IMG/VR virus record: IMGVR_UViG_3300027906_000029
Coordinates: 1 to 46,235 of that record
DNA from: a virus
Strand: one strand, 5' to 3'
Length of the DNA: 46,235 bases
Shown: one piece after another, positions 14,538-42,791 of the stretch
Layout: every line of letters starts with the position of its first letter
Position numbering within the stretch: the stretch's first letter is position 1
Notes under the pieces: generated by a model
What the model was told of the DNA's origin: nothing
Database searches by the model: none
The model's input: only the letters and a program-made list of their open reading frames with translations
Program-made: the position numbers and the translations under genes

Positions 14538-15583
14538 TATACGTCTTCTTGCTGAGTTGGACTATAAGTTCTACCATCAGTATAGAAAGTAGTAGTTTCA
14601 TTGAATCCAAAGTTATCATCCATATCAACTAATAAATCATCTGCTGCAGTTAATACGTCAATTGATGTATTTTCTAAATGTGTTACTTTATCAGTACCAT
14701 CATAACCTCTAGCAACAACAAGTGTCAAGTTATCAGGTTTTTCTTTGACTAACATAATCTCATTATCAATAATAATTCTATTGTTAACTGCAAAGTTAGT
14801 AGAATCATTTACAGCAAATCTAGTCTTAGTCTTAGTTAATGCTTCACGTAAGGTAGCAGTATTATCATCATTATAATCCTCTCTTGCTTCAGGTACAGCA
14901 GTATATCTGACTTCTCTTTTTGCTGTAAGTGCTGTATCTGCAGCATAATCGACTTGAACCTTCTTAATAAGTCCTTCAGGTGTATCCTCAACTGGACCGA
15001 ATAGATGAGTCTTAGCACTAAAATTAAGTGTGTATATTAATGCTCTTCTAGTTGAAAAGTCTCCTTCATAATCATCTTGGAATGAAATATTATCCAAAAC
15101 AATTGGTACATCTCTCTTTTCATTAATTGCATTAATTAAATCAATAGTTATATTGAATGATGGTTGAAAATATGGAAGTATCTGTTCTACAATCTGTAAT
15201 GCGTCATCATTTAATTTAGTTAAAATATTTAATTCAAATCCTATATTATATGGAACAGGCATATAAACCCTTCTTATTTTTTTATTATCATCAAGTGCTT
15301 TGAATACTTGAGTTATACCAGACTTTCTTGTTGCATCATATGTAATATTAGTCATCTCAAAAGACATTCTTGGTAATGTAATTTGAACTGCTCTATTCAA
15401 ATCTGGATTTTGCTCCAGTCTTGCTAAGAATTTCTGCATTGGACCATAAGCCAATGGAACTCTTATTTCACCACCAGGAGCACTAGTAGAAGATTTGTGT
15501 CGTATGCGAATATCATTAAATATCGTACCGAAAGCAATAACTGTCTTTCTTAATATTTGATGATAATAATAAGTACCTAACAT
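14537..15583 (-). CDS. 15: Tail sheath stabiliser / tail completion protein gp15
   Basis: The 348-residue product carries the gp15 start MLGTYYYHQILRKTVIAFGT, then FNDIRIRH and VPLAYGPMQKFLARLEQNPD, LPRMSFEMTNITYD, and YMPVPYNIGFELNILTK, all classic gp15 motifs. T4 gp15 (272 aa) forms a hexamer that caps the tail sheath and binds the neck. The protein here has an extra C-terminal region from about residue 230 containing an LREALTKTKTRFAVND / IMLVKEKPDNLTLVVARGYD segment. A similar GYDGT/RG(F/Y)xG unit (element with ...I..E.m.V......l.V.RG..GT) also appears in the giant and DUF4815 proteins. The gene abuts gene 16. Confidence 0.88.
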   Translation of the reverse strand: MLGTYYYHQILRKTVIAFGTIFNDIRIRHKSSTSAPGGEIRVPLAYGPMQKFLARLEQNPDLNRAVQITLPRMSFEMTNITYDATRKSGITQVFKALDDNKKIRRVYMPVPYNIGFELNILTKLNDDALQIVEQILPYFQPSFNITIDLINAINEKRDVPIVLDNISFQDDYEGDFSTRRALIYTLNFSAKTHLFGPVEDTPEGLIKKVQVDYAADTALTAKREVRYTAVPEAREDYNDDNTATLREALTKTKTRFAVNDSTNFAVNNRIIIDNEIMLVKEKPDNLTLVVARGYDGTDKVTHLENTSIDVLTAADDLLVDMDDNFGFNETTTFYTDGRTYSPTQQEDV

Positions 15584-17001
15584 TAATATACACCGAATGG
15601 ATTGGATTCTGTAAAGTCTAATAAATCATCTGCTGCATCTTCAAATTCATCATTAGAATCGAACTCATCATATATATCTCTATTGTCCCATTGATCAACA
15701 ACATACTGAGCAAATTCTCCAGTAATTGTTGATGATGTACCAATAACAGTTTCACCTTGAATGAAGCCAGAAACTGTAGTTCCTATACCTACTTGAGATA
15801 TCTTAAGAGTTCCAGTATCTTCATCCCAATCTTTAACTCTTGCGTCAGTTCCTGAAGATTCTCCATGAACAACCTCATTAAAGTAGAATGTACCAACTCC
15901 AGAAAGTGCAGGTGCAGCAATAACAACATTAGGAACAGATGTATATCCTTGACCTGGATCTGTAATTCTTAAAGATGTAAGTACATTATCAGCATTAACA
16001 ACTGCTTCAGCAGTAGCAGTAGTTCCAGCACCACCTGGTCCTGCAACAGTTACTATAGGAGGAGTTGGATAACCAGCACCCTGATTAGTAAGAGTAATAC
16101 TCTTAACACCTCTCAAAGTTTTTTCTATTGTTGCATCTGCAGTTGCTCCTGTTCCATTACCACCAACAATTGTAACTGTAGGTGGTGAAGTATATCCAGA
16201 TCCAGCATCAGTTAATACAATTCTTTCAATAGAATGGACACCTTGCCTGACAGTAGTAATTGCAACGGCACTAGCGTCTTGTCCTGCTGCGTTACCTGTA
16301 GTAGAAATAGCAACTGTTGGAGTTGCTGTATAACCACTACCATCCTGAAGTAATCTAAGTTCTCTTATATAACCAGATGGTTGAGATAAGACTGCAGTTG
16401 CAGCAGCAGTAGTTCCTGCTCCAGTTACCTTAAGTGTTGTAATAAATCCTTCATCTTCGACAATTTCATCAATCTCCTCAATAGAAGTATCAATAACCTC
16501 ATTCTCATATTCAAAGAGTTCACATTTTAATTGATAAACATAAGTATTACCTAACTGATAGAAAGGATCTTCATGCTCAACAAATTTAATTTCAAATAAT
16601 CTACCACCTAATGGGAAAAATATTAAATCTCCTTCTTTTGGTCTACTATCTACTATAACTTCTTCATCTGGAAGAGCAACCAAAAATGCACCAATAAAAT
16701 CTTCAAATCTTTCTTTAGATATTGTTACACTTAATTCATCTCTAACTATACTCATACCAAACTTGGTCATAATATCAGCCTGGCCACCATATCCTTCATA
16801 ATTATTAACATAGACTTCTAACTGAAAATTATCATCAAATTTAGAAGTTTGAACTTCTTCGATAACAGTTTGCCTATTAACGAATTTTCTTGGTATATAA
16901 GTTACCTCAACACCAAAAGTCCTCAACTGTTCGTTGATTAAATCTTGAACAAGTCTTTGTTCACTATCTGCACCTTGTAGAAAATAAGAATTTAAAGCCA
17001 T
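15583..17001 (-). CDS. 14: Neck protein gp14 with an inserted four-fold GxGY repeat domain
   Basis: Residues 1-185 match gp14: MALNSYFLQGADSEQRLVQD, TYIPRKFV (35-42), GQADIMTKFGMSI (73-85), EGDLIFFPLGGRLFEIKFVE (123-142). The protein ends in the typical ESNPFGVY. T4 gp14 is 256 residues; this one has 472, because about 180 residues are inserted between roughly 186 and 370. The insert holds four units with GSGY (221-224), GSGY (267-270), GAGY (308-311) and GQGY (350-353), spaced 41-46 residues, each followed by (T/P)xxPxVxI. A further G-rich beta segment (371-430) follows. gp14 helps seal the head-tail connector; the insert is likely surface exposed. Its stop overlaps the gene 15 start (TAATG). 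Confidence 0.87.
   Translation of the reverse strand: MALNSYFLQGADSEQRLVQDLINEQLRTFGVEVTYIPRKFVNRQTVIEEVQTSKFDDNFQLEVYVNNYEGYGGQADIMTKFGMSIVRDELSVTISKERFEDFIGAFLVALPDEEVIVDSRPKEGDLIFFPLGGRLFEIKFVEHEDPFYQLGNTYVYQLKCELFEYENEVIDTSIEEIDEIVEDEGFITTLKVTGAGTTAAATAVLSQPSGYIRELRLLQDGSGYTATPTVAISTTGNAAGQDASAVAITTVRQGVHSIERIVLTDAGSGYTSPPTVTIVGGNGTGATADATIEKTLRGVKSITLTNQGAGYPTPPIVTVAGPGGAGTTATAEAVVNADNVLTSLRITDPGQGYTSVPNVVIAAPALSGVGTFYFNEVVHGESSGTDARVKDWDEDTGTLKISQVGIGTTVSGFIQGETVIGTSSTITGEFAQYVVDQWDNRDIYDEFDSNDEFEDAADDLLDFTESNPFGVY
15918..16360 (-). repeat. Four GxGY repeat units in gp14
   Basis: Four protein-level repeats of 41-46 residues lie in gene 14, with consensus (V/L)..(I/L).(L/I)(T/L).(A/P/Q)G.GY(T)..P.V.(I/V)..(G/P). 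They are diverged in DNA. Related units occur in the giant protein, the gp8-like protein and the DUF4815 protein. Confidence 0.75.
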
Positions 17002-17002
17002 G

Positions 17003-17857: not shown

Positions 17858-18062
17858 CTTCTTCTAATTCTTCTAGTAAATTGTCATGTTTTTCTTGCAA
17901 TTCTTTTAGACTTGCGAGAAGGTCATTTTTCTCATCCAAGAAATCTTGGGTTAGAGTTTGTACTTTTGCCTCTAATAAGACATTCTGATTTGAGAGTTGT
18001 GCTAATTTAGCATTATAAATTTGAATCAAAACATTAATGTCAACGTCAGTTTGATTAGCCAT
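17841..18062 (-). CDS. Small coiled-coil protein upstream of gp13 (73 aa)
   Basis: The 73-residue protein MANQTDVDINVLIQIYNAKL... is almost entirely alpha-helical by composition. Hydrophobic residues fall in a heptad-like pattern from about residue 10 to 68 (QLSNQNVLLEAKVQTLTQDF, then LLASLKELQEKHDNLLEELE). It is strongly acidic at the C-terminus, where 17 bases overlap the start of gene 13. A small coiled-coil protein at this place is common in cyanophage myoviruses; it may be an assembly chaperone or head-neck component. Function unknown. Confidence 0.65.
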   Translation of the reverse strand: MANQTDVDINVLIQIYNAKLAQLSNQNVLLEAKVQTLTQDFLDEKNDLLASLKELQEKHDNLLEELEEDETSK

Positions 18063-18072
18063 AGTTAGTTAA

Positions 18073-20428: not shown

Positions 20429-20457
20429 TTATTATAATACTAAGGGGATCTAGAATA

Positions 20458-20466
20458 TATTTATAC
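20458..20466 (-). promoter_or_regulatory. T4-type late promoter containing the stop codon of the preceding gene
   Basis: The minus strand reads GTA TAA ATA: the TAA is the stop codon of the 64-residue gene and also part of an exact TATAAATA late core. The element ends 29 bases before the ATG at 20428 and would start the adaptor/fibre and neck cluster. Confidence 0.7.
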
Positions 20467-20655
20467 TATTTTTGTTATCTGTTTTAGCATGGACTTTATT
20501 TCTTCAATATCCTGCTTAATCTTGTCTAATTCTTCTTTCTGAGTACGTTTAGCAGACCTCATCTGGATATATTGATTATATCCAGATATATCAGTATTTA
20601 CTATTGCACCAGACTTATCTCTATAAAGATTTTTATGTCCTTCAACTGGTATCAT
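20461..20655 (-). CDS. Small conserved phage protein with C-terminal coiled coil (64 aa)
   Basis: The protein begins MIPVEGHKNLYRDKSGAIVN, a form I associate with a small protein conserved beside baseplate genes in cyanophage myoviruses, and ends with a heptad-like segment (ELDKIKQDIEEIKSMLKQI, about residues 42-60). It has no Cys or membrane segment. The ATG overlaps the stop of the 2403-residue gene (TAATG). The stop codon TAA is embedded in the next late promoter. It could be a small assembly partner or a cap for the preceding protein; function is unknown. Confidence 0.65.
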   Translation of the reverse strand: MIPVEGHKNLYRDKSGAIVNTDISGYNQYIQMRSAKRTQKEELDKIKQDIEEIKSMLKQITKIV

Positions 20656-23600
20656 TATGCTAATGCTAGAACTCTTAAATCCTTAAATCTTGGTGGATTT
20701 GCTTCATCAGTTCCACTAGATACAATCTTAATCTTAAATCCAGTAAATTCTTCAAGATCATCAGCAGTAAACTGATACTCTGAGAATTCATCATCACGAT
20801 TTGCATTTACAATTGCATCTGAAGTACCATTGTTTAATTGATCACTAATAATAGTATCTCCAAATCCATCACCATCACGATCAGTCATATTAGCATATCC
20901 AGGGAATAATTCATATGATTGATCAACTTCACTTGAATCTGGTCTTGTAAGTTTATAAAGAACTCTAAAGTCAGCAGAAGAATGTCTATGTGCAGCAACT
21001 AATACTTTTAATGATCTTGCTGGTTGTTTCAAATCTATTTGATTTGAAATGTAAATTGCAGCATGAGTATCTCCAGAAGAAAGATTAGCAATAGATTCAC
21101 CAGTATAATTTGCAACTGGGTTATTCAATTTATTTCTCTGGAATACAACTGTACCATTCTGAGTATCTATTATTGGTGATAGATCTGCGTTTTGAGTAGA
21201 AAGTTGCATACTCAATGTAAATGATCTATTTTTAGGTAAATCAGTTAATTTTGATAGTTCATTAATTTCAGAACAAACAATTCTAGTTGATGATAGACTA
21301 TTTGGTTGATTTAATTCAACATTTTCATAACCTTGATCTTCAAATGATACTTCTACACCACCAGCACTTGTACCAGAAACAGTTCTTACTTGTGTAGAAA
21401 GATTTGTTTCACCAGGTGTAAGTACGTTAAATTGTGGAGCAACAGAGTTAAACTGTATGTTCTTAGATGAGAAACCTCTAGGTCCACCAACTGTATTTTC
21501 AGTAGTGAAGCTCATTTGTTTATCACCAGTCATTCTGGAATCATTAGTACCATTTCTACCTGCTTTAAGATAAAGTTTATCAATATCTTTAGAATTTCTT
21601 ACTAAAGCAGGAAGAGGTGCAAGACTGTGTGTTGTATTAATACCGACTAGAGAAGCACCATTTAATTCATATCTGTAAACAAGATCATCTACTTTATGAC
21701 TTTGAGCAACAGTACCGTTAAGACCTCTGGTTGAAACACCAATCACTCCATTACCATTAATACTATTATAGAACATAATTTCCTGTCCTATTTTCAAATA
21801 ACCGAAGGAAGTTGTTATACCTTCAAAAGTTGCAAATGTAGTAGTAGATGCTGATCCAACATTAATGGTATTATCTGTAGATGTTACATCTACTACCAGT
21901 TTTTCTGGAATAGTATCTGGTTCAATACCAGATATTACTACTTCATTAGTATCAGAATGCATACCATGACTATAAAGTTCTAACTCAAATACATCACCTT
22001 CATAAAGATCACTAATTACAGAACTAGTCGTTCTAACATCAGTATTACCCATAGAAACTGCAACACCTGCATCATCATAATAAACTAAATTTTGTCCTGA
22101 AGTAAATTCTTCACCTTGACAATCAGTTAGATATAGAGTATCTGAAGTAGCAGCAACATCGGTCAATGTAACTTTAGCACCTGAACCACTAGTCATGGAT
22201 GAAGTTGTAATACCCAAAACATCACCTTTAACATAACCAGTACCAGGAGAAGTAATATTAACTGTAGTTATTTCACCAGCAGTATTAGCAATAACAATTG
22301 CTGCTGCTCCACTACCATGTCCAGATATAGTATAAAGAGGAACAGCACTAAATTGACCAGTTGAATAACCTACACCAACTGCAGTAATATCTACATCAGA
22401 AGTACCAGTTGTTGCTGGATGTCCAACTTGTTCAATAAAACCACTTGGTCCTACATGATTTGCACCACCAGCACCTTCACTAATTTTTCTTCCAGTAGTT
22501 AATACGGAATTAGCAGCAGATGCAGTAGTAATACCAACCTTTAGTTTTCTTGGTAAACATCTTATTGGATTTGGTAATAAACCTGGAATTTGTCCAGTAG
22601 TATCATTAAGTTTAGGATTATAGAAATATGCACTACCTGCAGCAGAAGTAAATTGACACTTATTAAGTGTGAACTTAAGATCTTGGAATTGGTTTGCAGA
22701 CCAAATAGATCCGTTCTGAGACTTAAATAAACTACCACCAAGATACTGTTTAGAAATAATTACACTTTCTGTATTTGGAAGACTAAATGTATCAATTGTT
22801 GGTTCACCCATTTCAGCGATCCACATTTCATAATTATTCGTTGTTGGTGCAAGAATAACTACTGCATAAGTATCTTCTGGTGGTAAATATATTGGTGATG
22901 GGAATGTTACTCTTGTTGCAACAGAAGCATCATCAGAAACATTAACTTGAGTTGGTTCTAGTGATATTATAGCATAATCTACAATCATCCTATCGGTTGG
23001 AGTTCCTAACTCAGTAGTTCTTATTTCAATATGAACTTTCTCTTGAGTATCTTTTTTAGCAAAGAATAGATCTACAGAAGATAAGAATACACCATTTTCA
23101 CCCTCAACAACAAATGTTTGTGCTAATGGGTCTCTTCGGAATACCCTAGTAACCTGAGTAATATTGTTAACTTCAGTAATTTCATTAGTAACATTGGTAA
23201 TATTATTAATGATGGGGATTGGTGGTGGTGGTGGATTTCTTATACTAATAGTTTCTTGTAAGAACTCATCAACTACACCACTAGTTGTATAAACTGTTTC
23301 TCCACTACTTATAGATGGAGATCCTGGTAATGCAAGAGAATTAGTTTCGCTAGAAGATAACTTAAATGTTCTACTACCATTTCTAAACCTAAGTGGAGGT
23401 GGTGGACTTGCTAATGGATCTCTAAAGAAGAATGATCCATAAACATCTCCATAAGTATCACTAATCAATCTAATATCACTAACAGTTGCTTGAGCACCAC
23501 TTGTAACTCCAAGTAAACTTATATCAGTAGTAATATATCCAAAGAATCTTCCTTGTGCATCTTCACGTAATGATGCAATATCCACGTTCAATACACTTGC

Positions 23601-26600
23601 TGAAGCAGAATATGCACTGGATAGATTAACAGAAGTATTATATGGGTTATTTAAGAATGTAATATCTGGAGCACTTATATCTCCTGCTTTATGATTAGGT
23701 TGACAAATTCTGAATGTAATTACTCTTTGTCCATCAAGGAAACCTTCTACTGTTTCTCCTGATTCAAAAACACCAGAAGTCATTGATATTTCTATTAATT
23801 TAGGAATAATATCAAGTCCAGAAGTGCTATCAAAGAAAGGATAATATCTAGTAAATGGTTGAAGACCATTTGCCTCAAATCCTACGTTCCTTGAACGAAT
23901 ATGTTCATCTGGTCTACTACCATTTCTAATTTCTGTAACAAATGATCCTTCAACATCACCCAATACAGTTCTTTCTCCATTAGCAATGAAAACATTTCTT
24001 ACCCAACTATCAGAAGCAGGATTAAGTGTTACAAGACCAGTAAATTCAATAATATTGAATGGGTTTACATTTTCAGTTCTAGATGCTAAAGGTTGTTTGA
24101 GTAATTCAGCTTCCTTATAGTCTAGAGTTAACATATCACCAGTCTTTCTTACATTAGAATCTAATAACTCTAAATTAGCTGAGAAATCAGCAGTATCAGA
24201 ATTTATAGATGGGTTTAATGCTAATTCTGGTTTAATAGCAAAGAAATCATTAGGAGTAGTTAATTCTCTTAATCTTGTATTAACATCACATTTATTATCT
24301 CTATTTCTTGTGTCTATTAAATCAGTATTTTTAAAATCATCTACAAAGAATCCAGTTTTAAATCTACTGAGTCCATCAGCATCTTGAACCTGAAGAGTTT
24401 TTGTATCAAGTTCTAAAAGACTTAATGATGTTACTGTTTCTAAAACATCTAATCTATCTTCTAGATGACCGATATCTCGCATTGTATACCGTCTATTATC
24501 AACAAGACGAACATATGCATCATCGGGATTATAAAGATATGCTGGAAGTTCAATAGTTGCAAGAGTCATTGCATCTTCAACATTAGTAGGAGGTTTAGGA
24601 TCTATTGAAGAAACACCTTTAATTACAGAAAGTCTTTCTTGCTTATCAAGAATAACTTTATCAATTCTAGGTAGATAGAAACTATAACCTAATAAAGAAC
24701 TCTCATTAGGAGTAACAATTAATGTTGGATTAGATCCAGCAGTTCCAAAATTCCTAGCACCATATGCAAATGGTGATGCAGTAGTTAAAGTCCAATCAGC
24801 AACTCTTGGTCTAAAATCAAGAGTATCAGATGCTCTAACACCATTTTTTAATATTGGAATATGCTTATCAAATTGCTCTTTACCATAAGAATCAATAGTA
24901 TAAACATCACCAGTATCATTAGATGGAACTTGATAACAATTATATACAACTGTTATCTTTCTAGAAGGTGCAGAGAATCCACCATTTCTAATTATTTTAG
25001 AATAATCGTAGAATTGCTCTTTTTGTCCTTTATCTAAAGTAAACTTTTCAGTTATATTCAAATAACTACCAGGTGTCTTATCCTGTAAATTTGTAATAAT
25101 ATTCGATTCTTTAAATGTTAATGATTCACCTATCTTAAATCTTTCTGGTGTTAAATAGCATATTTCAACTTCAGTTGCAGATACTCTTGTAGTTAATTGA
25201 GCAACTGCTTTACTATCTGAACCAACTATTTTTTCACCTAAAATTGAATTTGTATCTAATCCTAATCCAGTTACAAATGAAAGTTTATCCAATATAGGTA
25301 CATTCGTATCTAATGATTCAAATACACCAACAACTTCTGCTACATCTGGTACATGTAAAGAAATTTCTTTATCATCAACCCTAAGACCATAAAAATTATT
25401 TTGTGTCAATCCAGTTCCATTAGTAGATCCTGCAGAAACACACTTATCAATAGTTATTTTCTCACTTCTAACATAATTCTTTTGCTTACTCTTAATATCT
25501 TTTTTCTTAACTGTTGTATTAACAACAATATTAGCAGCATTTCCAGATAATCCAGTAACAGATATTTGAGTTCCATCAGCATTTAGACTAAATTGATCTG
25601 ATGATAATGGAGCAACAAATGAACCATTTACTGCAGTTGAATAATGAACTGAATATCTTTCTGAATCATAATTTTCATAGAAAGCACTAGAAATACCTGT
25701 AGATGATATTGGTACTTCCATTAATCCAACAGAACTTGCACCTTCTCCAGTAATCTGTTTTGATACAAGTAAAGTTGATCCAGCTAAATCTATATCAGAA
25801 ACATTAGATGAACTCAATGGTGCATATAGTCCTGCATTCTCATTACTAACAATATTAGGTCTACCTACACTAAATGAAACTGTTTCTTGTCCAGTAGCAG
25901 GTATAGCACCATTACATACACCAGCAACAGTAGCTACTGCATCAAGATCCATTGTTAATCCATCAGGAGATACCCATCTAACTTTATTAAAGACCTCATC
26001 AGTAGAGTTTGGTCTTTGGTATCTAATAATAGTATCAGATTTAATACCAGCAAAATTCTGTCCTGCACAGCTAGTAATACCAGCAGAGTTAATAACTAAT
26101 TGATCAGTAACATTAAATCCTTTTGGAATAACTCTTTGTAATGTAGTATCTGCTGCAAAATCAACAGTATTTGTGTCTATAATACCACCAGATCCTCCAG
26201 TATTTTGATATACAGATTTAACATCTTGTATTCCAAAAATTCTAACAGATTTAAGTGATCTCTGTACAAAAACATCACCATTTATCTTAATTGGTTCACC
26301 AGCAAGAAATGTTCCAGATGTTTGTTCTATTGAAATTTCAGTATTTGCATTTGCTCCTGCTGCTACTGTGTAACCAGTAGCACCACTATGTAAACCTTCA
26401 ATATAAGAAGATGCTGGCAATTCAGCACTAGTACAACTAGAATTTAAAATAACGTTTGTATATGTTTGAACATCAAAGCAATATAAATCCCAATCTGAAC
26501 CAGCATTATTATATGGAGAATCACTTAGACTAAAGGAATATGCTCTTGCCTTTCCTATTATATCTCCAGCAGCTGCTGCAGCAGTTCCAGTTGCTCTTCT

Positions 26601-27866: not shown

Positions 27867-27869
27867 TTT

Positions 27870-29453: not shown

Positions 29454-29472
29454 TTATTTCATATTTTTTATG

Positions 29473-29481
29473 TATTTATAC
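29473..29481 (-). promoter_or_regulatory. T4-type late promoter upstream of the gp8-like gene
   Basis: The minus strand reads GTATAAATA, an exact TATAAATA core. It abuts the TAG stop of the giant gene (TAGTATAAATA) and ends 19 bases before the ATG at 29453. This would allow gp8 and the following genes to be transcribed independently of the 13.3-kb gene upstream. Confidence 0.7.
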
Positions 29482-32400: not shown

Positions 32401-35400
32401 TGACGAGGATAACTATGCTCACTACCGTAATTATCTTGACTACACTGGAATACTAAAGATGAAGTACCAATTCCAACTTTTTCTCCAACCTGAAGTTCAT
32501 GATCTCCAATTGTTAATGTTAAATCACCAGTAGCAGCATTATAAGTTGCATCACTAACATTGTATGTACCACTACAAGTAAATTCTAAACCAACTAAAGT
32601 TACCACTTCATTTGAAGGTCTGAAGTTATGTGGTACATCTGTAGTTATTTCTAGATATCCTGTACGGTTATTATATGACGCTGTAGTAATACCAATTGCA
32701 TTTCCTATTGTCGGAATACCAACTATCTCTGAAATAGACTTTCCTGCTCCAATTACAGGGTGTACAACTGCACCATGTAAAGGTGCTACACCTAATCCAC
32801 CAGTAGATCCAAGAGAAACAATCATTCCTCCTCTTGGTAATTGATTAGAGTTTACATCAACATCACTCTTAATTACACTACCATCAGTAGAAGTAATACC
32901 AGTAAATATGATATCAGTTTGTGTGGTTCCTATTCCAACAAAATTATAGTTATTTCCAACATTATTCTCTGTAGTTGGAACCTGGAAGATACCATTGATT
33001 AAATTCATAGCATCACCAGTTGTTAATGCTGTTGATCCAATACCAACACCTTCTTTTGTTATTTCAAATGTTTGACCAATTCCAGTAAATTCATTAGATA
33101 TATCGTCAAATATTTCATTAGTTGTGTAATTATTTCTTAAGAATACTCTTCCATTAAATGTTGCTCTAGCATATTCAAGATTTAATTCATTTAATTGAGT
33201 TAAATTAGTTCCTAATGGTGCTTCAGTAAAATGAATCTTACTTCCAACCATATTATAAGAACCCTTGTAAATTCTAAGAGCAGCATTATTAGCATGTGCA
33301 GTTGCTGCACTACCAACAAATCCTCTTGTAACTTCTAGTAATTTTGCAGTTCCACCACCATCTATTGGTCCTAAAGCAGTTGTTCCTATTCCAACAGAAA
33401 CAACTTTCATATATTCATCATCAATTTTTACAATATCTGTAGGTATTATTGTTCCTATACCAGCAACTTCAAAAATTGTTCTAGATGTAGAAATATGAGC
33501 ACCATTATTTGTTATAGTGGTATTAATAGGACTCCACATTAATGGAGACTGAATTACTCCATCGATAGAGAGTAAACTCTTCTCCATCTTCTTATCCATC
33601 TCAAACTTATGAGAATTTCCAGAACCAGTACTTAAGAAGGTTACTGCTGTTCCAGCATTTGCATTTGCTGCTGTTGTAGCAATTTTAAAACTTTCCCTAT
33701 CAACTCTTATAGCATATACTTCATTAGGCAAATCTGTTCCAGAAACATGTTGCATTGCAGTACTACCAATACCAGTAAAGGTAGATCCTGGAGTATAAAT
33801 TAATTTCTCACCAGTCATGAAGAAATGATCACTAATGTTAAATTCTCCTGTTGCTGGATTTAATATAGCAGTATCTGAAGGATCAAATGTCTTTTCAAAG
33901 ATAGGAACACCATCATGTAAAATATCAAAGTCATACTTAGTTGATCTATCTCCATCAATAGCATTATATGATACTAATGCTACAGAATCACTAGCATTAC
34001 CATAGATTAAATCTGGTGATGTATTAAAACGATCACTTTCAGTATAAATTAATTCGTCAAATTGTTGAACTTCAATATTAGATCCATTAAAAGCAGCATC
34101 TGGTTTGAATTTTAAGAATGTCTTTCCACCAGATCTAGAAGTTATAAATGTACCAATTCCAGTAGTAGTTCCAATCGAAACAAATGGATAATGACTCAAA
34201 TAAGTGTCTACACCATCAAACATCATTAATGTCTGATGTAATGCACTAGTTGTTCCACATGAAACTCTTACAATACTCTTAACACTAGTAAATATTGAAG
34301 TATCAATACCAACACTATTACCATAAGAACTGCTTGCATTAGAATTTGTAATATTAAAATACTTAGATTCATATCTTGCACTTCTTTCTGTTCCTGCAGT
34401 TTGACCAGCATTATTAAAGTAATGTGTTCCTATACCAGCTGCGGTAGTACCAAATCCAACAATTCTAGATCTAACATTAACTTCATTTGAAGAGTCATTA
34501 GAATGACTGAATGATAAAATATTAGAACTAATGTCTGAAGTAAATGTACCAATAAAATTACCAGATATGGAACTTGTTATTCCACTATCAGCATAATATT
34601 GAGAAATATATGAATTTGTTCCATCATGAGTTACAAATAATTCAACAAAATTCTTTTCTTTAGTAACATTATCTTGAATTTCTACCGCAGCAAAATAAGA
34701 TTCAATTTTATCAAGAGTATTGGCAGTAATTTGTACAGTTGTACCTACACCAACAACTCTATTTGAAGATGTTAATTGAGCAAATCCAATAGTTCTTGTA
34801 GATATACCTGCTAAACTACTTGTAACAGCACTCTTTAAGATCTTAACATCAAGATCATCAGCAAATATATTATCAGGTGTTATTCTTAATAGATTATCTA
34901 CACCTTTTATTGTTGCATGTTCCTGAGATCCGTTAAATACACTACCCTTTTCAAAAGTAAATGTATTATCACCTTCTCTGTAAAGAACTAATTCAGTAAC
35001 CTGAGTATCATTATTATTTGGATTTTTAACCTGAATTAGGAATTTTGAATAATCCTCATAAACAACTTGTTCACTATATCCACTTAAATTAGACTCTGAA
35101 TTAGAAAATTCATCACTAAAGTCATCAATAGTTAAAACTCTATTACTTTTATTCTTTATATAATCTGCTAATTTTAAATTACCAAATTTTATATACTTAG
35201 ATTTATTGTTAACAGTATCAGTATCAAGAACAAAATCAAGAATGTTAACTGTATCTACTCTTTCTTCGTTTATTAAATCACGAACTATTTCAGCAGAAGT
35301 AGTAGCGGTAGAAATACCAGCTTGAGTTGTAGATGTTATTCCAGTATCTGCAAAATTCTTTAATCCACTAGTATGAACTAAACGATTTACTGGATTTATA

Positions 35401-38400
35401 AATTCATCATATGTAATAGGACTTTGAATACTATATGATAAATTCTGATAATAATCATTATCTGGTAGTACTTGGAAATCTTCGTTTAAAATACCAATAC
35501 TATCAGACCATCCTTTATTATTTTTTAGAGAATAATTAATATCAAATCTTCCATTATTATAAACGATGGTATTAATGGTGGCTACTGTTCCACTAATAGT
35601 ACCTCTTAAAGTATCATTTACAAATAACTTATACTTACCATATATTTTTAAATTGTCACCATCACTTTCTGCTACAGTTAATTCCTCATCAATATAAGCA
35701 CCATTAACTAATACAACAACTTTTTCACCAACTTTAAATTGTGCTTGTGATTGTGTTGTTTTAAATCTTGGATAATCGGTATATTTAACAACAGAAGCAT
35801 ATCCTTGCTGTGCAGTTTTAGCAATACCAGTAGCTGTAGTGAAATTAGTGTAATCAATTTGTATTTCAGTATTACCTTGAGCATTTGCTTGAGTATATCC
35901 TACAACTGTAAGGAATCTGTATCCAAGATCTGAAGAGTTAAATCCATCTCCTAGTGTACTGTGTTTTTGTATACCCTCAACATAAACTATATCACCAACA
36001 GCAAGAGGTGCTGGATTAGTAGAAAAACCAAGAATTGGTGTTCTTAAAATACAAGTTAATATACCAGTTATAGTATCAGTACTTGGTCCAACTACAGTAT
36101 CAATAGTAAATCCGTTTGTATTGTTAGTTGCAAAAATTAAATGCTCTGATGGTTTTAATCCTACTGAATTTGTAATTATATCAACAGATTCAATAGATGA
36201 TCCCTGCATTATTGGTGCAATAGCACCAGTAGTTATTTCTTCTTTTGTTTCAGGATCAATAATAATTAAATCTGGAGCACTTATATAATTCTTTCCACCG
36301 TAAAGAACTTCTATATCATCAATTTTATCAGAATCTCTTACAGTTATTGTAGGTGAAATTGAAGCTTCTGGTCTTAAAGTTTTATCTGATGGATATTCAA
36401 ATCCAGGATCAAGAATTGAAACATCGTCAATAACATTAATAATTCTAGATTTTGGTACAATTTGAGCGTCCTGACCAGTTGTGGAACCCATACCTGTAAA
36501 AGTAGGTAATGATTGATATCCAAATCCACCAAAATTAATTTTTAAACTATCAATACCACCATCTGTTAATTTTGAATCAGTAGTGTACTTTATAGTACCT
36601 ACACCTATATTTGCTGCAGTATATGATAAATTTTCTGGTACTTTAGGTACAGATATATTAAACGTAGTCGTACCAACTCCAAATACATCATAGTTACCTG
36701 TATATGTACTATCAATATAGACAATTTCTGATCTATTTTTAACATCTATATCAGCAGTGCTAATATATCCAGCCTTCTCAACTGAATAATATATCATTGA
36801 TGGATTATCTTTATGATAATTGTATGTTGTAGTTGTTGTTCCTTGACCAGTTAATATGAAATTACTAGTACTTCCAGTAGATATAAATTCATTTTTAAAA
36901 TCATTATCATAGAATAATTTTAATTCATATCCACTAAGAGAACTATGATTTAAATCAAATACTAAATTATTATTTTTAAGAACTTCTATTCGTGGATTAA
37001 TTAATGATAACTCTTGAGTAGAACCACCAAAATCGGTTATATTTACAACATTTGGTGGATGATTAACTACATCATATAATGTTTCACCAAGATGAATACT
37101 ATCATCATCTATTCTATAAACAAAATAAGAAGTATTAGTTGTCAATCCTGCAGCAGGAACATTACCAGTATAGAAAACCTTTTCACCAGTTTTAAATTTA
37201 TGATTACCTAAACTTATAGTATTTGTAGTTGTATTAATACCTGTAGTATTAAATCCAACTGGATTAATTAATAACTTATTACGTTCTGCATTATATCTTA
37301 CTGTATTAACTCCCGATTGACCAGGTTTGATAGTTAATCTAACAGAATCTTTATTTACTAGATTATGTGAAGTAGAAACAGCAACTTGAGCTGTTATTTT
37401 CTGTGCTTTAGCAGTTACTTGTGTATATTGAGATTCTAATGCATAATTATTATCATCACTTGCATTATATACGAAGAATAGACTTCCTGTTGTTCCTAAT
37501 CCAACTTGAGTAGTAAGTCCAATATGATCTTTTGACTTATTAACAACATAAAGTGTTTGACTATTTCCTAGATATGGAATATTAAAGAATGGTCCTCCAT
37601 CATTATCTGTTACAGTTAATGCTAACCCAGGACCAGGCTTACTGAATGTTACTGCTTGATTTGTTTCAAATGGGTGGTTTGGAAGGTATATACTTTGAGA
37701 AGGAACATTTACATTTTTAGTAAATCCTTCTATTGTCATACTTACTTCAGTACCAACTCCAACTTGAGTACCAACACCAACTGATTGTGCAGGGTTAAAC
37801 CATACTTTTTTATTTACTTTTGACTCAAAATAATCACTCTTAACTGGAAGTGTAAAGTACTGTGGAATTAAATCTACTCGACTTGATGCTGTATGTGCTA
37901 CTCCAACAACACCTCTCTTAACTCTTAATACATTTCTATCAGGGAATGTTTGTAATACTAATAGTTTTTCTGTTCCAATACCAATACTACTACCAATAGA
38001 AACTACTTTTGGTATTAATGAAACATGTATATCAGTAACAATACCAGAATTTGAATTAGCAGGAATATCCTTATAAAGAACAGTTACTCCAGTTTGTACT
38101 CCTATCTGATGAGTATCTGTAAGATTATTAACATAGGTAGATACACCAGCAACTGCTATATGATCATTAGTCTTAAATGTATGTGATGTTGAGATATATC
38201 CTGATATCTGATTTTCATTATCCCAGACAAAAACAACATCTTCTTCAGTTTGTACTGTAGTATTAACATCAACAATTGCTTTACCTATAACCCTGTTAAC
38301 AGAAACATCTATTCCACCACCTCTAGTATCAGTATTATCAAAAATAGCAACCTGTCCAACTGTATATCCAATACCTGGATTAACAATATCAAATGAGTCT

Positions 38401-41400
38401 ACAGAACCCCTAGTGACTGATTCTATAATTGCAGCTTGATCAACTAATTCATTAGATTCTACAAGGAAATCATTATCTGCTCCCCTATCTGCTACTTTAT
38501 GTGGGAATGTATTTCTAATTAAATTTGAATTATTAAAATCAAAATTATTTTGATTAATTGAGAAATTCTCATCAATTGGATTAGATCTATAAGTATGACC
38601 AATAAAATATGGGAATTTTGTTTCTAATTGATTGTTATTTGGATTAACTGCAAGACCTGCAAAATATGCGTATGTACCATTAGGAAATTCTGGAGTTTTA
38701 CCAAATCTTCCATTATTTTCATCTAAATCTCCAGATCCATCCCAGAAGTAATCTTTTACAAAGAATCCAGTGTTAAATCCTACTGGTCTATCAGAAATCA
38801 TTGAAGCACTAGCAGCATATCCAACAGTAACTAAACTTGATGCTGAGTTTACATCAGTAGGATCATCATATCCATAAGGACCATAAATTGGATTTCCATC
38901 ATATGCCCATCCAATAATAGGAGAATGTTGTGCTCCAGTATCACCAAAAGCAACTTGAATATTAGTTGAATATCCAACAACACTATATTTTAATTGATCA
39001 GAATTAAGTTCTGATGGAGATAATATTTCATTTCCAAATCTATTATAATTGTTAATCTGTAAACCTCTAACATCTGGTTCTAAAATACATCCATATCCAG
39101 GTGCAGTAACTTCAATACTTGTTGTTGATTGTGCATATCCAACACCAGGTTTAAGTATTACAACTTTAGTAATTACACCATTTTCAACAACTGCTCTTAA
39201 TTTAGCACCTATTGCAGTTCCAACACCAACAACTTCTAAATCTGGTGCTGCATAATAATCTTTACCTCTATTTTGTATTTCAACAGCAGTAATCTGTCCA
39301 TTACCAATAATTGGTCTTAATTTACCCTTTTCACCAACTTTTATGGATACTAATGGTTTTTTCTCAAAGTTAAGAATAGTTGATCCATATCCAGTTCCAC
39401 CTTCATAAACATAAGTCTGAACAATTTCTCCACGAACTCTAGGTGTAAGAGTAACTAATCCTACAGGATTAGTAATAATACCACTTGCACTAGTTGATAC
39501 ACCAACATATTCAACATCAATATTAACTTCAACTGGTGGATATGCAAAACAATGTGATCCTGTACCAACACCATTTAAATAAACATATTTTTTACGTGTA
39601 TAGTCAGAAGTTGATGTTCCAGCAATTCCAGCATTAGTTAATCTAAAAGTATCATTATCTAATTTAATAACTTGATAATATTGTGATGTTTTAGTAACTC
39701 CTGTAGTAGTTGTTAATCCAGTTATTACTGTACCTGATGTAGAATATAAAATTTTGTCACCATTTTTAAATCCATGATTTTCAAATGTAATTGTTGAATT
39801 AACTGTAGAAATTCCTACTGGTTTTACATATAATTTTCTATTCTGATAACCACTACCTGGATTAATGACTTTAACAGATGCTAAAGTCATTTCTGGTTCA
39901 TAAAGTCTGAATTTATGAAGACCACTACAATTAAATGTGGTTAATCCTACTGTATTAATTCCTGATTTATAATCTTCTAATGTTTCATATAATCTAACTG
40001 AACTAGGTCCAACTACTGATGGATAGTATATACTTCCTTCAACTAAAACACTTGAGATACCAGCAGTTCCACCTGTATATGCATTACTTCCTTGATATGT
40101 ACTTGCACCAATAGGATTATTACCATTAGCATCATATACGAGAGGTTGTCCATTATATAAATTATGCTGATTTTTAAATATTATTTGATCATTTTGTACA
40201 TCAACTCCACCATCACCTGGGAGGAATGTAGCACGACCAAAGAAATCTAGGTTACGATATCTTTTATTAAGAAAAGGTTTTAATACAGCACCATCACCAT
40301 TTCCTCCAATAACAGTAACTGTTTTAACAGATTTAATATCAAAATTTTGTGGATCAATATCTATAGAACTAATATTACCACTAACAACTGGTTGAATTAA
40401 TGCAGTTGTTCCTGCACCAGCAGTTAATGTAGTAGAAGGTCCAGTAAGAGTAATTGATGGTATACCAAGAACATCATAATTATATCCACCATTTAATACA
40501 TTTAATTTTGAAATTGGTCCGCAGAATATTTTATCATCCGATTTATAATTTAAAATCTCTACACCATTAACCATCATCCCAGTTGACCCAGGAATAGTTT
40601 CACTTCCTTGACCAGTTTTAATATTTGCTTCTATTGGAAATTTTTTAAGAACTTTCTCAGGACCAATTAACCTATTTGCATGAGAATCTAATGTAAATGC
40701 ATGGATAGCAGTTGATCCAAGTCCAACAGGTTCTGAAAATCTAATAGGTTCGTCAGTTACAACAAATGCTAAAGATCGATATAATTTTATTTGTTTTGGA
40801 TCATCTAATACTCTTACGTTATACTTAGCACCAGTAACTAAACCAACTATACCATTTTCTTCTGGTAAATAAACTACCTCATCTCCAGTAATAAAAGGAA
40901 CTTTAGATGGGAATGAAATAATAGAATAATTATTTAAATCAGTATCATATCCTTGTAATACAGTTCCTGGACTACCAGCAAGATCATTACTTTCTGTTCC
41001 AATAGCTTCTGGAATACTGGAACTAGAAATTTTCTCCATAATGTCATATGAAGGTAATGAATTTGATGCTACATAAAAATCTTTATCAAAATCATTATAA
41101 ACATTCTGTGTATCAGAAGTTAAAACATCATTTCCATATCTAAGTGCTGTTCCAGAACTAGTCGCTTTATTTAAAATTCTTCTTAAATCATGCTCATATT
41201 TTTCTATAAAACCTTCAGTACGTATACCAACAAACGTTAAATTATCTAATTTTACTTCTTTAGGGTTATTAAGAGCAATTTCTTTAACAACAGCAGTAGC
41301 ACTAGCAGTATAATCTGCTCTATAGATAATTTCTACATTATCACCCTGCTTTAAACTTGATTTATCAGTATTTGACTTAAGAACATAAGATGATCCAGAA

Positions 41401-42791
41401 ACAGAGTCAATTTCATAAGTAGATGATGTATTATAGATCCATGAATTAGCAAATACTTCTTTTTTAGATGGATTATTTGATAATGATGGGTTAGGAATAT
41501 TTTCACCTAAATTCCTTACACTTATTTTTTCACCAACAGAAGAAGAATTAATATTTGAAATAGGTACAAAACTATCAATTACACCAGTAATTCTTAGTTC
41601 AACTTTCTTAGTTAAATCCCCATGTTCATATCCAAAAACAATTTCATCTGATCTTAATTTATCAGTAGATTTAATTGCTGATGTAATACCAGTACAACCT
41701 AAGAATTGATTAACAGTTTTGCCTGTATATGTTACGGCAGTATTAACTCCACATATAACTGTTCCAGTTGCACCAAAACCAATAGTAGAATCTACAGTTA
41801 TAACAGAAGAACCAACAGATACACCCCCTATAACTTTAGTTTTACCAGGAACTGTGAAATTACCTTCAATTGCATCATTACCATACCCAACAAATAGATT
41901 TATTTTATAGTATGTACTAATTCCAGTTCTACCAAAAGACCTACTAAAGACCTCAACTTCAGATACAGATCCTTGAGTTGCTGTATCTACTGAACTTTTA
42001 ATTGTTTGTCCAACTAAGTTATTAGGATTTCCAGAGATTTTTTCTGCAACAATAAGTTCTCTTCTAATAAATTCTGCTGATGATGGTTTAACTAAATGTT
42101 CTTCTAAATCAATAATTTTAGGATCTACGCCATATAATGCAGAAAATAATATTTTAAATGATTCTTCAGTACCTTTTGACCTATAAAGAGAAGTGGATTG
42201 CTTTATATAATTACTAACATCTAAATTTGGAACAAAATCAGTATCTTCTAACCCAGGAGTAAAAGTAAATTTAATTTTATTATAAAATTCTTTTAAAAAA
42301 TGAGCACTTAAATTAATAACAGTTGAATCAACTGCATGTGTTGTAGGAGTTGTAGTTGTAAAAACTAATTCATTTGGATTATTATCCTGTCTATATGAAG
42401 TAATTCCACTAAATCCACGAGTAACACCAGTAAATGTATTGGTTGTTAATCCACTATATGTAAATATTTCATTATTAATCTTGAATAATCCATCTTTATT
42501 TGGAAATCCTTTTGTGCTAGTAACATTAATATCACCAACAGCAGCAGTAGTTCCAATGCCAACAGAAAGAGTTGTTATACCAACAATAACTTCTGGTGTT
42601 AAATTATCTAATTTTATATACTGGTCTAAATTATCTACAAGGTCAGTAGGACCACCTCTATGTTCCTGAGAAATATAATATTGCTTTAAAAATTCACCAG
42701 CTTTCGGATTTTCTGAAATAAGAAATTCTGGTAGCTGATTTTCAATTATCTGCTGTACTTGTACTCTAGCATCAATTCCAGTGCCTATCAT
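29481..42791 (-). CDS. Giant baseplate/virion structural protein in the gp7 slot (4436 aa)
   Basis: One uninterrupted frame of 4436 codons fills about 29% of the window. It occupies the place of T4 gene 7 between 6 and 8. Residues 1-280 look like the conserved N-terminus of cyanophage gp7-slot proteins: QVQQIIENQLPEFLISENPK, FLKQYY, then TSLYRSKGTEESFKILFSAL and YGVDPKI. The rest is beta-rich and repetitive: many GIGT/VGVGT strings; GxGY or related motifs near residues 771, 980, 1133, 1178, 1218, 1475, 2088, 2169, 3817, 4190 and 4230; and three copies of a unit with F.C(S/N).DN...H.YPR near residues 3407-3490, 3600-3685 and 3717-3800. No membrane segment or catalytic motif is obvious. It is probably a wedge protein extended into fibre-like or host-contact arms. 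It is far longer than T4 gp7 (about 1030 aa). Its start overlaps the gene 6 stop (ATGA). Confidence 0.85.
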   Translation of the reverse strand: MIGTGIDARVQVQQIIENQLPEFLISENPKAGEFLKQYYISQEHRGGPTDLVDNLDQYIKLDNLTPEVIVGITTLSVGIGTTAAVGDINVTSTKGFPNKDGLFKINNEIFTYSGLTTNTFTGVTRGFSGITSYRQDNNPNELVFTTTTPTTHAVDSTVINLSAHFLKEFYNKIKFTFTPGLEDTDFVPNLDVSNYIKQSTSLYRSKGTEESFKILFSALYGVDPKIIDLEEHLVKPSSAEFIRRELIVAEKISGNPNNLVGQTIKSSVDTATQGSVSEVEVFSRSFGRTGISTYYKINLFVGYGNDAIEGNFTVPGKTKVIGGVSVGSSVITVDSTIGFGATGTVICGVNTAVTYTGKTVNQFLGCTGITSAIKSTDKLRSDEIVFGYEHGDLTKKVELRITGVIDSFVPISNINSSSVGEKISVRNLGENIPNPSLSNNPSKKEVFANSWIYNTSSTYEIDSVSGSSYVLKSNTDKSSLKQGDNVEIIYRADYTASATAVVKEIALNNPKEVKLDNLTFVGIRTEGFIEKYEHDLRRILNKATSSGTALRYGNDVLTSDTQNVYNDFDKDFYVASNSLPSYDIMEKISSSSIPEAIGTESNDLAGSPGTVLQGYDTDLNNYSIISFPSKVPFITGDEVVYLPEENGIVGLVTGAKYNVRVLDDPKQIKLYRSLAFVVTDEPIRFSEPVGLGSTAIHAFTLDSHANRLIGPEKVLKKFPIEANIKTGQGSETIPGSTGMMVNGVEILNYKSDDKIFCGPISKLNVLNGGYNYDVLGIPSITLTGPSTTLTAGAGTTALIQPVVSGNISSIDIDPQNFDIKSVKTVTVIGGNGDGAVLKPFLNKRYRNLDFFGRATFLPGDGGVDVQNDQIIFKNQHNLYNGQPLVYDANGNNPIGASTYQGSNAYTGGTAGISSVLVEGSIYYPSVVGPSSVRLYETLEDYKSGINTVGLTTFNCSGLHKFRLYEPEMTLASVKVINPGSGYQNRKLYVKPVGISTVNSTITFENHGFKNGDKILYSTSGTVITGLTTTTGVTKTSQYYQVIKLDNDTFRLTNAGIAGTSTSDYTRKKYVYLNGVGTGSHCFAYPPVEVNIDVEYVGVSTSASGIITNPVGLVTLTPRVRGEIVQTYVYEGGTGYGSTILNFEKKPLVSIKVGEKGKLRPIIGNGQITAVEIQNRGKDYYAAPDLEVVGVGTAIGAKLRAVVENGVITKVVILKPGVGYAQSTTSIEVTAPGYGCILEPDVRGLQINNYNRFGNEILSPSELNSDQLKYSVVGYSTNIQVAFGDTGAQHSPIIGWAYDGNPIYGPYGYDDPTDVNSASSLVTVGYAASASMISDRPVGFNTGFFVKDYFWDGSGDLDENNGRFGKTPEFPNGTYAYFAGLAVNPNNNQLETKFPYFIGHTYRSNPIDENFSINQNNFDFNNSNLIRNTFPHKVADRGADNDFLVESNELVDQAAIIESVTRGSVDSFDIVNPGIGYTVGQVAIFDNTDTRGGGIDVSVNRVIGKAIVDVNTTVQTEEDVVFVWDNENQISGYISTSHTFKTNDHIAVAGVSTYVNNLTDTHQIGVQTGVTVLYKDIPANSNSGIVTDIHVSLIPKVVSIGSSIGIGTEKLLVLQTFPDRNVLRVKRGVVGVAHTASSRVDLIPQYFTLPVKSDYFESKVNKKVWFNPAQSVGVGTQVGVGTEVSMTIEGFTKNVNVPSQSIYLPNHPFETNQAVTFSKPGPGLALTVTDNDGGPFFNIPYLGNSQTLYVVNKSKDHIGLTTQVGLGTTGSLFFVYNASDDNNYALESQYTQVTAKAQKITAQVAVSTSHNLVNKDSVRLTIKPGQSGVNTVRYNAERNKLLINPVGFNTTGINTTTNTISLGNHKFKTGEKVFYTGNVPAAGLTTNTSYFVYRIDDDSIHLGETLYDVVNHPPNVVNITDFGGSTQELSLINPRIEVLKNNNLVFDLNHSSLSGYELKLFYDNDFKNEFISTGSTSNFILTGQGTTTTTYNYHKDNPSMIYYSVEKAGYISTADIDVKNRSEIVYIDSTYTGNYDVFGVGTTTFNISVPKVPENLSYTAANIGVGTIKYTTDSKLTDGGIDSLKINFGGFGYQSLPTFTGMGSTTGQDAQIVPKSRIINVIDDVSILDPGFEYPSDKTLRPEASISPTITVRDSDKIDDIEVLYGGKNYISAPDLIIIDPETKEEITTGAIAPIMQGSSIESVDIITNSVGLKPSEHLIFATNNTNGFTIDTVVGPSTDTITGILTCILRTPILGFSTNPAPLAVGDIVYVEGIQKHSTLGDGFNSSDLGYRFLTVVGYTQANAQGNTEIQIDYTNFTTATGIAKTAQQGYASVVKYTDYPRFKTTQSQAQFKVGEKVVVLVNGAYIDEELTVAESDGDNLKIYGKYKLFVNDTLRGTISGTVATINTIVYNNGRFDINYSLKNNKGWSDSIGILNEDFQVLPDNDYYQNLSYSIQSPITYDEFINPVNRLVHTSGLKNFADTGITSTTQAGISTATTSAEIVRDLINEERVDTVNILDFVLDTDTVNNKSKYIKFGNLKLADYIKNKSNRVLTIDDFSDEFSNSESNLSGYSEQVVYEDYSKFLIQVKNPNNNDTQVTELVLYREGDNTFTFEKGSVFNGSQEHATIKGVDNLLRITPDNIFADDLDVKILKSAVTSSLAGISTRTIGFAQLTSSNRVVGVGTTVQITANTLDKIESYFAAVEIQDNVTKEKNFVELFVTHDGTNSYISQYYADSGITSSISGNFIGTFTSDISSNILSFSHSNDSSNEVNVRSRIVGFGTTAAGIGTHYFNNAGQTAGTERSARYESKYFNITNSNASSSYGNSVGIDTSIFTSVKSIVRVSCGTTSALHQTLMMFDGVDTYLSHYPFVSIGTTTGIGTFITSRSGGKTFLKFKPDAAFNGSNIEVQQFDELIYTESDRFNTSPDLIYGNASDSVALVSYNAIDGDRSTKYDFDILHDGVPIFEKTFDPSDTAILNPATGEFNISDHFFMTGEKLIYTPGSTFTGIGSTAMQHVSGTDLPNEVYAIRVDRESFKIATTAANANAGTAVTFLSTGSGNSHKFEMDKKMEKSLLSIDGVIQSPLMWSPINTTITNNGAHISTSRTIFEVAGIGTIIPTDIVKIDDEYMKVVSVGIGTTALGPIDGGGTAKLLEVTRGFVGSAATAHANNAALRIYKGSYNMVGSKIHFTEAPLGTNLTQLNELNLEYARATFNGRVFLRNNYTTNEIFDDISNEFTGIGQTFEITKEGVGIGSTALTTGDAMNLINGIFQVPTTENNVGNNYNFVGIGTTQTDIIFTGITSTDGSVIKSDVDVNSNQLPRGGMIVSLGSTGGLGVAPLHGAVVHPVIGAGKSISEIVGIPTIGNAIGITTASYNNRTGYLEITTDVPHNFRPSNEVVTLVGLEFTCSGTYNVSDATYNAATGDLTLTIGDHELQVGEKVGIGTSSLVFQCSQDNYGSEHSYPRHGVDPIAGIGTPITDITSTNITIKVGVGTDSLHKYVSGGVVNYGSQYVGVTTTIFPNAVNDRPFSIVETLTDKTFVANVGTSTVRHNYVGSGTAYPYYSDLNWGSGYYGNVAIGVTDDVYEHKFVSAGVGSITANAGGPFTAIDAQYESHTGNLTLTIPNHGLTVSNTVGLATGFLVMSCSRDNFKTNHYYPRTTDPANAATLAISSVSTDTITVGVGSAGGGGYGAVVTASIPYNTHFFEGADANAVNVTGGSQLTPTDATYEPATGILTITFGSNHGLTNSNTVTLDNNSFKFSCNQDNRKSIHEYPRTTDPASGSTLAITVPATNKISVNVGQSPTGTGGALQFAIGAGGTGYVNPHINIPQPSYQNLEITGVSRRGIGNTTDTGTGQLITVAVSPTDNATGIGSTSWIVSDFDVARSGHSFLVGDVFKPVGLVTSKYLNSSSLISDFELTVTETFTDRFTCWNFGQFDYIDSIKDLQNGTRTRFPLMYNSQLVSFEIDGTDPDSALVDMNSLLLIIIDGVIQNPGEAYNFAGGTTFTFTEAPTVNDHVSIFFYRGTAGDDSKIFPVKETVKQGDLLRIKKVGLHTEQQHRVLSGITTSDTIETEIYSGLGVDENNFKPMSWNRQKYDRVINGEIVYKSRDSIEPYVYPTARIIGDVNTTQSEIFVDNAHFFNYEENESSIVITDQISAMIIPDSSDPVAAAITAVVSAGGTISSLSITNGGVGYGTATVSIGAPSHIGVGIGSTATATLTLTNGVITDTTIVNPGLGYTQSNPPSVIASFPSWNREKIESIDIIQGVTGIVTGITTSAPTSGKLAIEFWLKKPGNSSYSGIAVGQPLYIYDTTVGTGLTSIAKSKNNNDTVGIGTSFADNIYQIQQWSVSGNTGLATCYIHTNTNHAGLTSTAPTNKILGRFSWGRLAGIARTTVNPVSIGITGLTVGLTTGSGISTFPPIQRRDYGWNDSGALKPDLG
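31390..32570 (-). repeat. Three protein-level repeats with Cys/YPR motif inside the giant protein
   Basis: Within the 4436-residue protein, three units of roughly 80 residues share the layout Y(N/E)..TG.LT(L/I)T....H.L....V.....(L/F).F.C(S/N).DN...H.YPR..DP, followed by I....V. They lie at about 32330-32570, 31740-31990 and 31390-31640. Each carries one Cys and the motif YPR(T/H). A partial upstream unit (YNNRTGYLEITTDVPHNF...F.CSG) precedes them near 32640. The copies are diverged at the DNA level, so this is an old duplication of a structural domain. Confidence 0.75.

Follow-up and report, generated by a model that had tools for sequence, protein, structure and literature searches.

The window, i.e. 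the whole stretch of DNA that was analysed, is a virus record of 46,235 bases. On sequence grounds it is part of a P-SSM2-like cyanomyovirus. The order of its genes (gp6, a giant protein at the gp7 position, gp8, a DUF4815 protein, gp13, gp14, sheath and tube genes) is that of P-SSM2 and other Kyanoviridae. Four proteins of the window carry a repeat with the motif Gly-x-Gly-Tyr (GxGY). All four are of virion type according to PF11649 (gp14), PF09215 (gp8), PF16075 (DUF4815 protein) and phrog_2885 (giant). Their genes and all features of the window described below are located on the minus strand.

The neck protein gp14 (head closure Hc2) with 472 aa is encoded at 15583..17001. It was assigned to the T4 gp14 family by PF11649 (106.8 bits, curated cut-off 25) and matched phrog_460 with 424 bits; the T4 gp14 structures 9mkb and 9lu4 matched residues 13-176 (E 2.6e-22 for 9mkb). 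The DUF4815 protein with 2,403 aa (20655..27866) was identified as a PSSM2_113-like virion protein by PF16075 (206.8 bits), phrog_358 and synteny with P-SSM2. For the gp8-like baseplate wedge protein with 527 aa (27870..29453), matches to phrog_438 (510.7 bits) and PF09215 (47.5 bits, cut-off 25) were detected, and the T4 gp8 structure 1n7z matched both ends of the protein (residues 3-200 and 494-527), in line with membership of the gp8 family. The giant baseplate wedge protein with 4,436 aa (29481..42791; phrog_2885, 3,517 bits) is placed between gp6 and gp8 like gp7 of P-SSM2 and was classified as wedge initiator of the gp7 position. It was also matched by phrog_4406, phrog_701 and phrog_460. 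A YHYH domain (PF14240, 82.4 bits) lies within the giant at residues 1286-1383 (38643-38936); this domain is predicted to be a tail-associated metal-dependent hydrolase (PMC7824862).

In gp14, a core of T4 type (residues 1 to about 184) is followed by the four GxGY units, then by a second module, a small barrel, and finally by the C-terminal arm. By HMM, the units comprise residues 208-250 (16252..16380; predicted strands 211-222, 229-232 and 244-252), 254-292 (16126..16242; strands 255-265, 276-279 and 284-293), 295-335 (15997..16119; strands 299-306, 316-319 and 330-335) and 337-378 (15868..15993; strands 340-348, 358-361 and 377-380). The sequence-only reading, from which this work started, had placed Gly-x-Gly-Tyr at residues 221, 267, 308 and 350, and these positions are exact. 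It had further counted two units each in gp8 and the DUF4815 protein and at least eleven looser ones in the giant, and the HMM led to the same numbers: two, two and, with degenerate units included, about 11. The units of gp8 are located at residues 223-263 (28665..28787; strands 229-234, 246-252 and 255-263, pLDDT about 80) and 267-292 (28578..28655). Four strict GxGY motifs occur in gp8; the count of two is nevertheless right, because the motif at residue 172 is the ancestral SGDGYxWKYLF motif of T4 gp8 and that at 312 lies outside a unit. The DUF4815 protein carries its units at residues 1818-1859 (22290..22415) and 1862-1900 (22167..22283), both with approximate borders, the latter in a GxGYxxGD variant; both were found by HMM, family profiles and homologues.

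The units of the giant are scattered over the protein. The HMM detected them at residues 758-797 (40401..40520; degenerate, GYNY), 970-983 (39843..39884), 1461-1498 (38298..38411), 2077-2108 (36468..36563), 2156-2192 (36216..36326; degenerate, GKNY), 3809-3830 (31302..31367; weak, 2.2 bits only), 4175-4215 (30147..30269) and 4219-4245 (30057..30137). The unit at 4175-4215 was the best of the giant with 29.4 bits without composition correction. A tandem run at residues 1118-1238 (39078..39440), seen by motif and HMM, contains GxGY at 1132 and 1216 and a degenerate part at 1164-1196. The match of the gp14 family phrog_460 to the giant (residues 1159-1232) falls inside this run. Two further strict motifs at 3567 and 3685 are probably unrelated to the module.

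The significance of these counts was determined with 2,000 shuffles per protein. For gp14 (four strict motifs, shuffle mean 0.16) and the giant (ten, shuffle mean 1.89) no shuffled sequence reached the count, and for gp8 (four) one did. The two motifs of the DUF4815 protein were reached by 219 of 2000 shuffles and are not significant by motif alone. A further HMM was built with 414 units of bacteria and archaea only, so that neither cyanophages nor the window contributed to it. Without composition correction it scored the full-length proteins with 172.8 bits (gp14), 132.7 bits (giant), 24.5 bits (DUF4815 protein) and 20.8 bits (gp8); the 200 shuffles of each protein all remained below these values. 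With composition correction, 0/200 shuffles reached the scores of gp14 and the giant, 1/200 that of gp8 and 58/200 that of the DUF4815 protein. The remaining 21 ORFs of the window were at or near background. The HMM from the four gp14 units of the window, as had been proposed, was too weak to decide. The HMM obtained with 273 gp14 units of cyanophages matched the giant (103 bits), gp8 (20.8 bits) and the DUF4815 protein (18.3 bits), each with 0/200 shuffles; a failure to hit these three proteins, which the sequence-only reading had named as evidence against a shared module, was not seen. With the same HMM, gp6, the sheath and a 592-aa protein were no different from shuffles.

In profile-profile comparisons against the gp14 units, the DUF4815 family reached 91%, the gp8 family 84% and the bacterial units 98%. 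Five control segments stayed below 1%, and column-shuffled decoys did not exceed 6%. The pair of DUF4815 units was kept in 49 of 49 representative homologues. For the putative homology of the DUF4815 units this family-level evidence is decisive, as the signal of the single sequence was gone after composition correction. The GxGY repeat family, as defined here, comprises proteins with scores of the phage-free HMM above shuffled controls; all four proteins belong to it, the DUF4815 protein by way of the family level. Cross-matches between PHROG families were also obtained: the gp14 insert matches gp7-like, gp8, gp5-lysozyme and fibre families, because the GxGY module is common to them. T4 gp14 and gp8 had been said to lack the module, and no unit was found in gp7, gp8, gp9, gp10, gp12, gp14 and wac of T4.

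The structure of gp14 was predicted with AlphaFold from 40 sequences. The insert (residues 200-365) was obtained with a pLDDT of 84-92, and the core was poor. In each gp14 unit of about 41 aa, the GxGY turn connects a long strand to a short one behind a conserved Pro, and a Gly-rich turn then leads to a second long strand. Along the gp8 chain, the model first becomes confident at the GxGY stretch (blocks at 71-88, residues 220-300), and most of the rest is poor. The predicted order of strands is alike in gp14 and gp8, the two of the four host proteins that were modelled. The structure prediction called for by the sequence-only reading gave a confident three-strand repeat in gp14, and at the GxGY sites of gp8 no unrelated fold was seen. 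The good prediction of the module within largely poor models suggests that it is able to fold independently.

When solved structures of the repeat were sought by profile, only chance-level matches resulted (best E 0.047). Foldseek with the gp14 model gave no significant match in the PDB, a result that neither proves a new fold nor excludes a shared one. Two candidates from VIA-align were rejected. The parts 184-206 and 368-440 of gp14 resembled small barrels (domain 3 type of EF-Tu/eIF2-gamma, JBD30 baseplate) with Z of about 5, and unrelated models reach the same; the likeness of the GxGY repeats to domain II of T4 gp18, also with Z of about 5, is within the range of unrelated models. In BFVD, 49 matches to the gp14 model were found at E<=0.001, with low TM-scores, because the targets are mostly long multidomain models. 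Matches to A0A6J5L2T0 and A0A6J5SB35 (P22 gp10-like, uncultured phages) and to A0A3G5AH46 (Sylvanvirus) had E values of 1e-4 to 1e-9. Judged by these predicted models, the module may be present in podovirus tails and a giant virus, too.

The most conserved columns of the HMM are Gly, Gly, Tyr, Pro, Val, Ile and Ala. No conserved acid, His, polar or aromatic cluster besides the structural Tyr was found among the 38 columns. The invariant residues (Gly, Tyr, Pro, small hydrophobics) are thus of structural type, and a polar ligand site is not conserved. A calcium repeat of RTX type (GGxGxDxUx) was considered and rejected: none of the 38 columns holds a conserved Asp and no such Pfam match was obtained.

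Comparison of homologues revealed occupied and empty sites in three protein families. T4 gp14 with 256 aa has no unit. Syn19 gp14 (306 aa) also has no GxGY unit and keeps the second small module ahead of its C-terminal arm. In gp14 of the window and of P-SSM2, core and second module are separated by four units, and gp14 of S-CAM9, S-8S53 and S-PRM1 has eight units. In Pseudomonas phage PseuP_224 and several Pseudomonas genomes, two units are located in one shared loop of a lambda-type tail tube (loci L189, L199, L212, L226 and L349; the copy in L189 has phage head and tail genes as neighbours). Phages D3 and SC_8_H2H8_2017, which are close relatives, have this tail tube without the two units; between the tubes with and without them, 109 of 164 aligned residues are identical. 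The third case is the sheath of Nostoc foliaceum (L241:2861-4972) with six units (about 235 aa), for which three congeners have a short loop instead; the flanks are 49% and 64-65% identical. This sheath belongs to a contractile injection-system cluster, and tube genes follow. The pairs of occupied and empty sites in gp14, tail tube and sheath support the view that the module behaves as an insertable domain.

The second gp14 module (residues 366-437, 15691..15906), a small barrel-like beta module according to alignment and the weak barrel matches with Z of about 5, follows the GxGY array with the pattern F..GE.(V/I).G.tSGt.A.V..wd..T..L.v. It is kept in Syn19 and absent from T4. A short and weak profile match (68%, 16 columns) was found in gp8, possibly at residues 366-424, so that by sequence this module may also be present there. 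An equally wide distribution of the second module was rejected as weak, with 10.1 bits for the DUF4815 protein and 9.0 bits for the sheath (0/200 shuffles, no clear domain) and 1/200 shuffles for the giant. Furthermore, gp14 homologues of 544-566 aa (L031, L032, L045, L052, L053, L080 and L085) contain about 70 extra residues between the second module and the C-terminal arm; this is a further insertion at a different site.

Outside the window the GxGY repeat was found in many bacterial phyla and in archaea. The bacterial examples match 17-19 PHROG families, and all of these with an assigned function are head, connector or tail proteins. Carriers of the module are tail tubes, sheaths, baseplates, fibres and bacterial surface proteins. 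A DUF2589 protein of Kordia (L172:3761-4612) contains two units, and a pseudopilin-like protein of Dehalococcoidales (L228:3521-4225) carries two at its C-terminus. The giant of Syn19 has 21 units, and giants of 4,436-6,483 aa carry scattered units. In P-SSM2, units also occur in the tail lysozyme PSSM2_019 and the tail-fibre-like PSSM2_293 (L253:285-2543, L252:1875-3728). Pfam and NCBIfam contained no model covering the repeat in the proteins scanned, and the plasmid collection gave no match. With tblastn, pure repeats from Nostoc detected nothing in phages, most probably because such queries are masked as low-complexity sequence. No paper naming the repeat or holding its consensus strings was found among the 5.39 million searched, which lacked most subscription papers and bioRxiv preprints, so that a prior description is possible. 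In sum, the module looks like an overlooked interchangeable building block.

With regard to its age, units at the same position of gp14 are 50-65% identical between different phages, and units at different positions 29%, both within a protein and between proteins. Therefore, the array of four gp14 units was formed once, before the clade radiated. The gp8 units are present in every homologue compared, Syn19 among them. A recent insertion into the DUF4815 protein was considered and rejected, as all relatives carry the pair of units. The modules were thus inherited in place within the clade of the window and current mobility is not seen here. The sequence-only reading had described a mobile beta domain that spread among neck and baseplate genes of this phage. 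One homologous, insertable beta-structural module in neck and baseplate proteins was indeed found. In contrast, a spread as an event of this phage has to be given up: 17-19 PHROG families as well as bacteria and archaea are involved, and the units of gp14, gp8 and the DUF4815 protein are old. The outward-facing carbohydrate or surface binding suggested in that reading may be a role of the module. The dN/dS of gp14 is 0.39 for the module and 0.12 for the core, i.e. selection is relaxed but purifying, with no positive selection over the module as a whole. Variability is highest in the turns between units, and the GxGY loops are conserved. Relaxed purifying selection fits an exposed accessory part and does not by itself identify a ligand.

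As best explanation, to which our analysis leans somewhat, we propose a self-folding beta cassette which is displayed outwards and works in the mode of Ig-like domains by weak multivalent contacts. Its unit of about 40 residues would run strand, GxGY turn, short strand, GGGGxGA turn, strand, and would be used in tandem. The cassette would be gained or lost over long evolutionary times in surface loops or linkers, with changing numbers of units. Neck, baseplate, hub, tube, sheath and fibre proteins, injection systems and other exported proteins would be its acceptors, and in this phage it would decorate gp14, gp8, the giant at the gp7 position and the DUF4815 protein. Homology, insertion into known folds and, as a prediction, the repeat structure are results of this analysis. 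We further infer an outward display in permissive loops of virion proteins, which would add bulk as well as numerous weak contacts, be it to the cell surface or to neighbouring virion parts. In gp14 the cassette lies behind the core beta-barrel and ahead of the C-terminal arm, which in T4 binds gp15. In T4, this arm (residues 178-256) is disordered as long as the neck is free; in the virion it is bound to gp15 (PMC12270204). With the cyanophage cassette at the start of the arm, a gp14 hexamer would therefore carry 24 units as a ring where head and tail join. The virion proteome of S-SM1 includes gp14 and the cluster T4-GC969 (PMC3037559). This supports the location in the virion, because T4-GC969 is the cluster of the Syn19 giant, in whose copy units were counted. 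A wider version, which we put forward tentatively, is an uncatalogued, interchangeable and pan-prokaryotic beta cassette. Inserted into neck, tube, sheath, baseplate, hub and fibre proteins, it would provide tailed phages and contractile injection systems with a second way of decorating virions, independent of Ig-like domains, and with multivalent weak adhesion to host surfaces.

The same observations can be read in other ways. The module may be a pure spacer or cement, i.e. rigid beta repeats that lengthen arms, thicken rings or make contacts within the virion with no affinity to the host surface. The conservation confined to structural residues, the freely varying tandem number (0, 4 or 8 units in gp14) and the position of the gp14 module next to the arm that binds gp15 in T4 agree with this, and units scattered over giants of 4,436-6,483 aa are expected of spacers. 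Loss or gain of the whole cassette between close homologues of tail tube and sheath makes a structural contact that is essential less likely. The role of a pure spacer is a real possibility and nearly as likely as the Ig-like working mode; both overlap, since a spacer can be displayed outwards, too.

Alternatively, the units may be ordinary, lineage-fixed domains of cyanophages with no mobile element of any kind, and the likeness to bacterial repeats may reflect old common descent only. The 50-65% identity of gp14 units at the same position against 29% between positions, the 49 of 49 DUF4815 representatives and the presence of the gp8 units in all gp8 proteins compared, that of Syn19 among them, agree with such inheritance. 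However, homologues of gp14, tail tube and sheath have the module or lack it at one and the same site, and it occurs in many unrelated protein families, which makes this reading improbable. A chance or compositional convergence of Gly/Thr/Val-rich beta proteins that happen to hold GxGY would suit the DUF4815 protein when taken alone (58/200 shuffles with composition correction, 219/2000 by motif). It is contradicted by gp14, the giant and gp8, with 0/200 shuffles without and 0-1/200 with correction, by family-level profile-profile values of 84-91% versus at most 6% for column-shuffled controls, and by the agreement of the gp14 and gp8 models in strand order. We regard it as very improbable.

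Naming the repeat would account for much of the unannotated length of the giant baseplate proteins of cyanophages. Many PHROG cross-matches are due to the repeat, which is a warning against false orthology. The cassettes are isolated and testable and offer a handle on what accessory domains of virions do.

Among known systems, gp7, gp8 and gp14 of Kyanoviridae (P-SSM2, S-CAM9, Syn19 and others) are orthologues of the window proteins with shared gene order. Their number of units varies among clades, and the records annotate these proteins but do not name the repeat. Carbohydrate-binding modules of 936 siphophages are likewise accessory domains on neck-passage and other virion proteins (PMC6669499). 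No sequence or fold link of the GxGY module to a carbohydrate-binding module was found, and conserved residues of ligand type were not present in it. Ig-like domains are the textbook example of promiscuous accessory domains of phages. They are described as accessory beta domains of several unrelated virion proteins (Fraser et al. 2006, cited in PMC9230969). Like the GxGY repeat they are present or absent between close homologues and sometimes in tandem. The extra domains of type 2/3 tail sheaths are located outside the conserved core, as is the six-unit array of the Nostoc sheath; they are described mainly as Ig-like beta-sandwiches, and a search of the text gave no mention of a repeat (PMC9230969). 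A unit of the GxGY repeat has about 40 aa and three predicted strands; an Ig-like domain is a sandwich of 7-9 strands and about 90 aa. Ig-type Pfam models (Big_2, I-set and similar) gave no match to E 0.1 in the window proteins and to E 0.01 in ten bacterial examples. The repeat is not classed as Ig-like, since it is too short and has no match to an Ig-type model. The comparison with Ig-like domains of a different motif, drawn from the sequence at the outset, is sustained by the accessory presence or absence at one site in gp14, tail tube and sheath together with the lack of an Ig-type match. The GxGY repeat, for which Pfam and NCBIfam have no model, is used in a way that resembles Ig-like domains.
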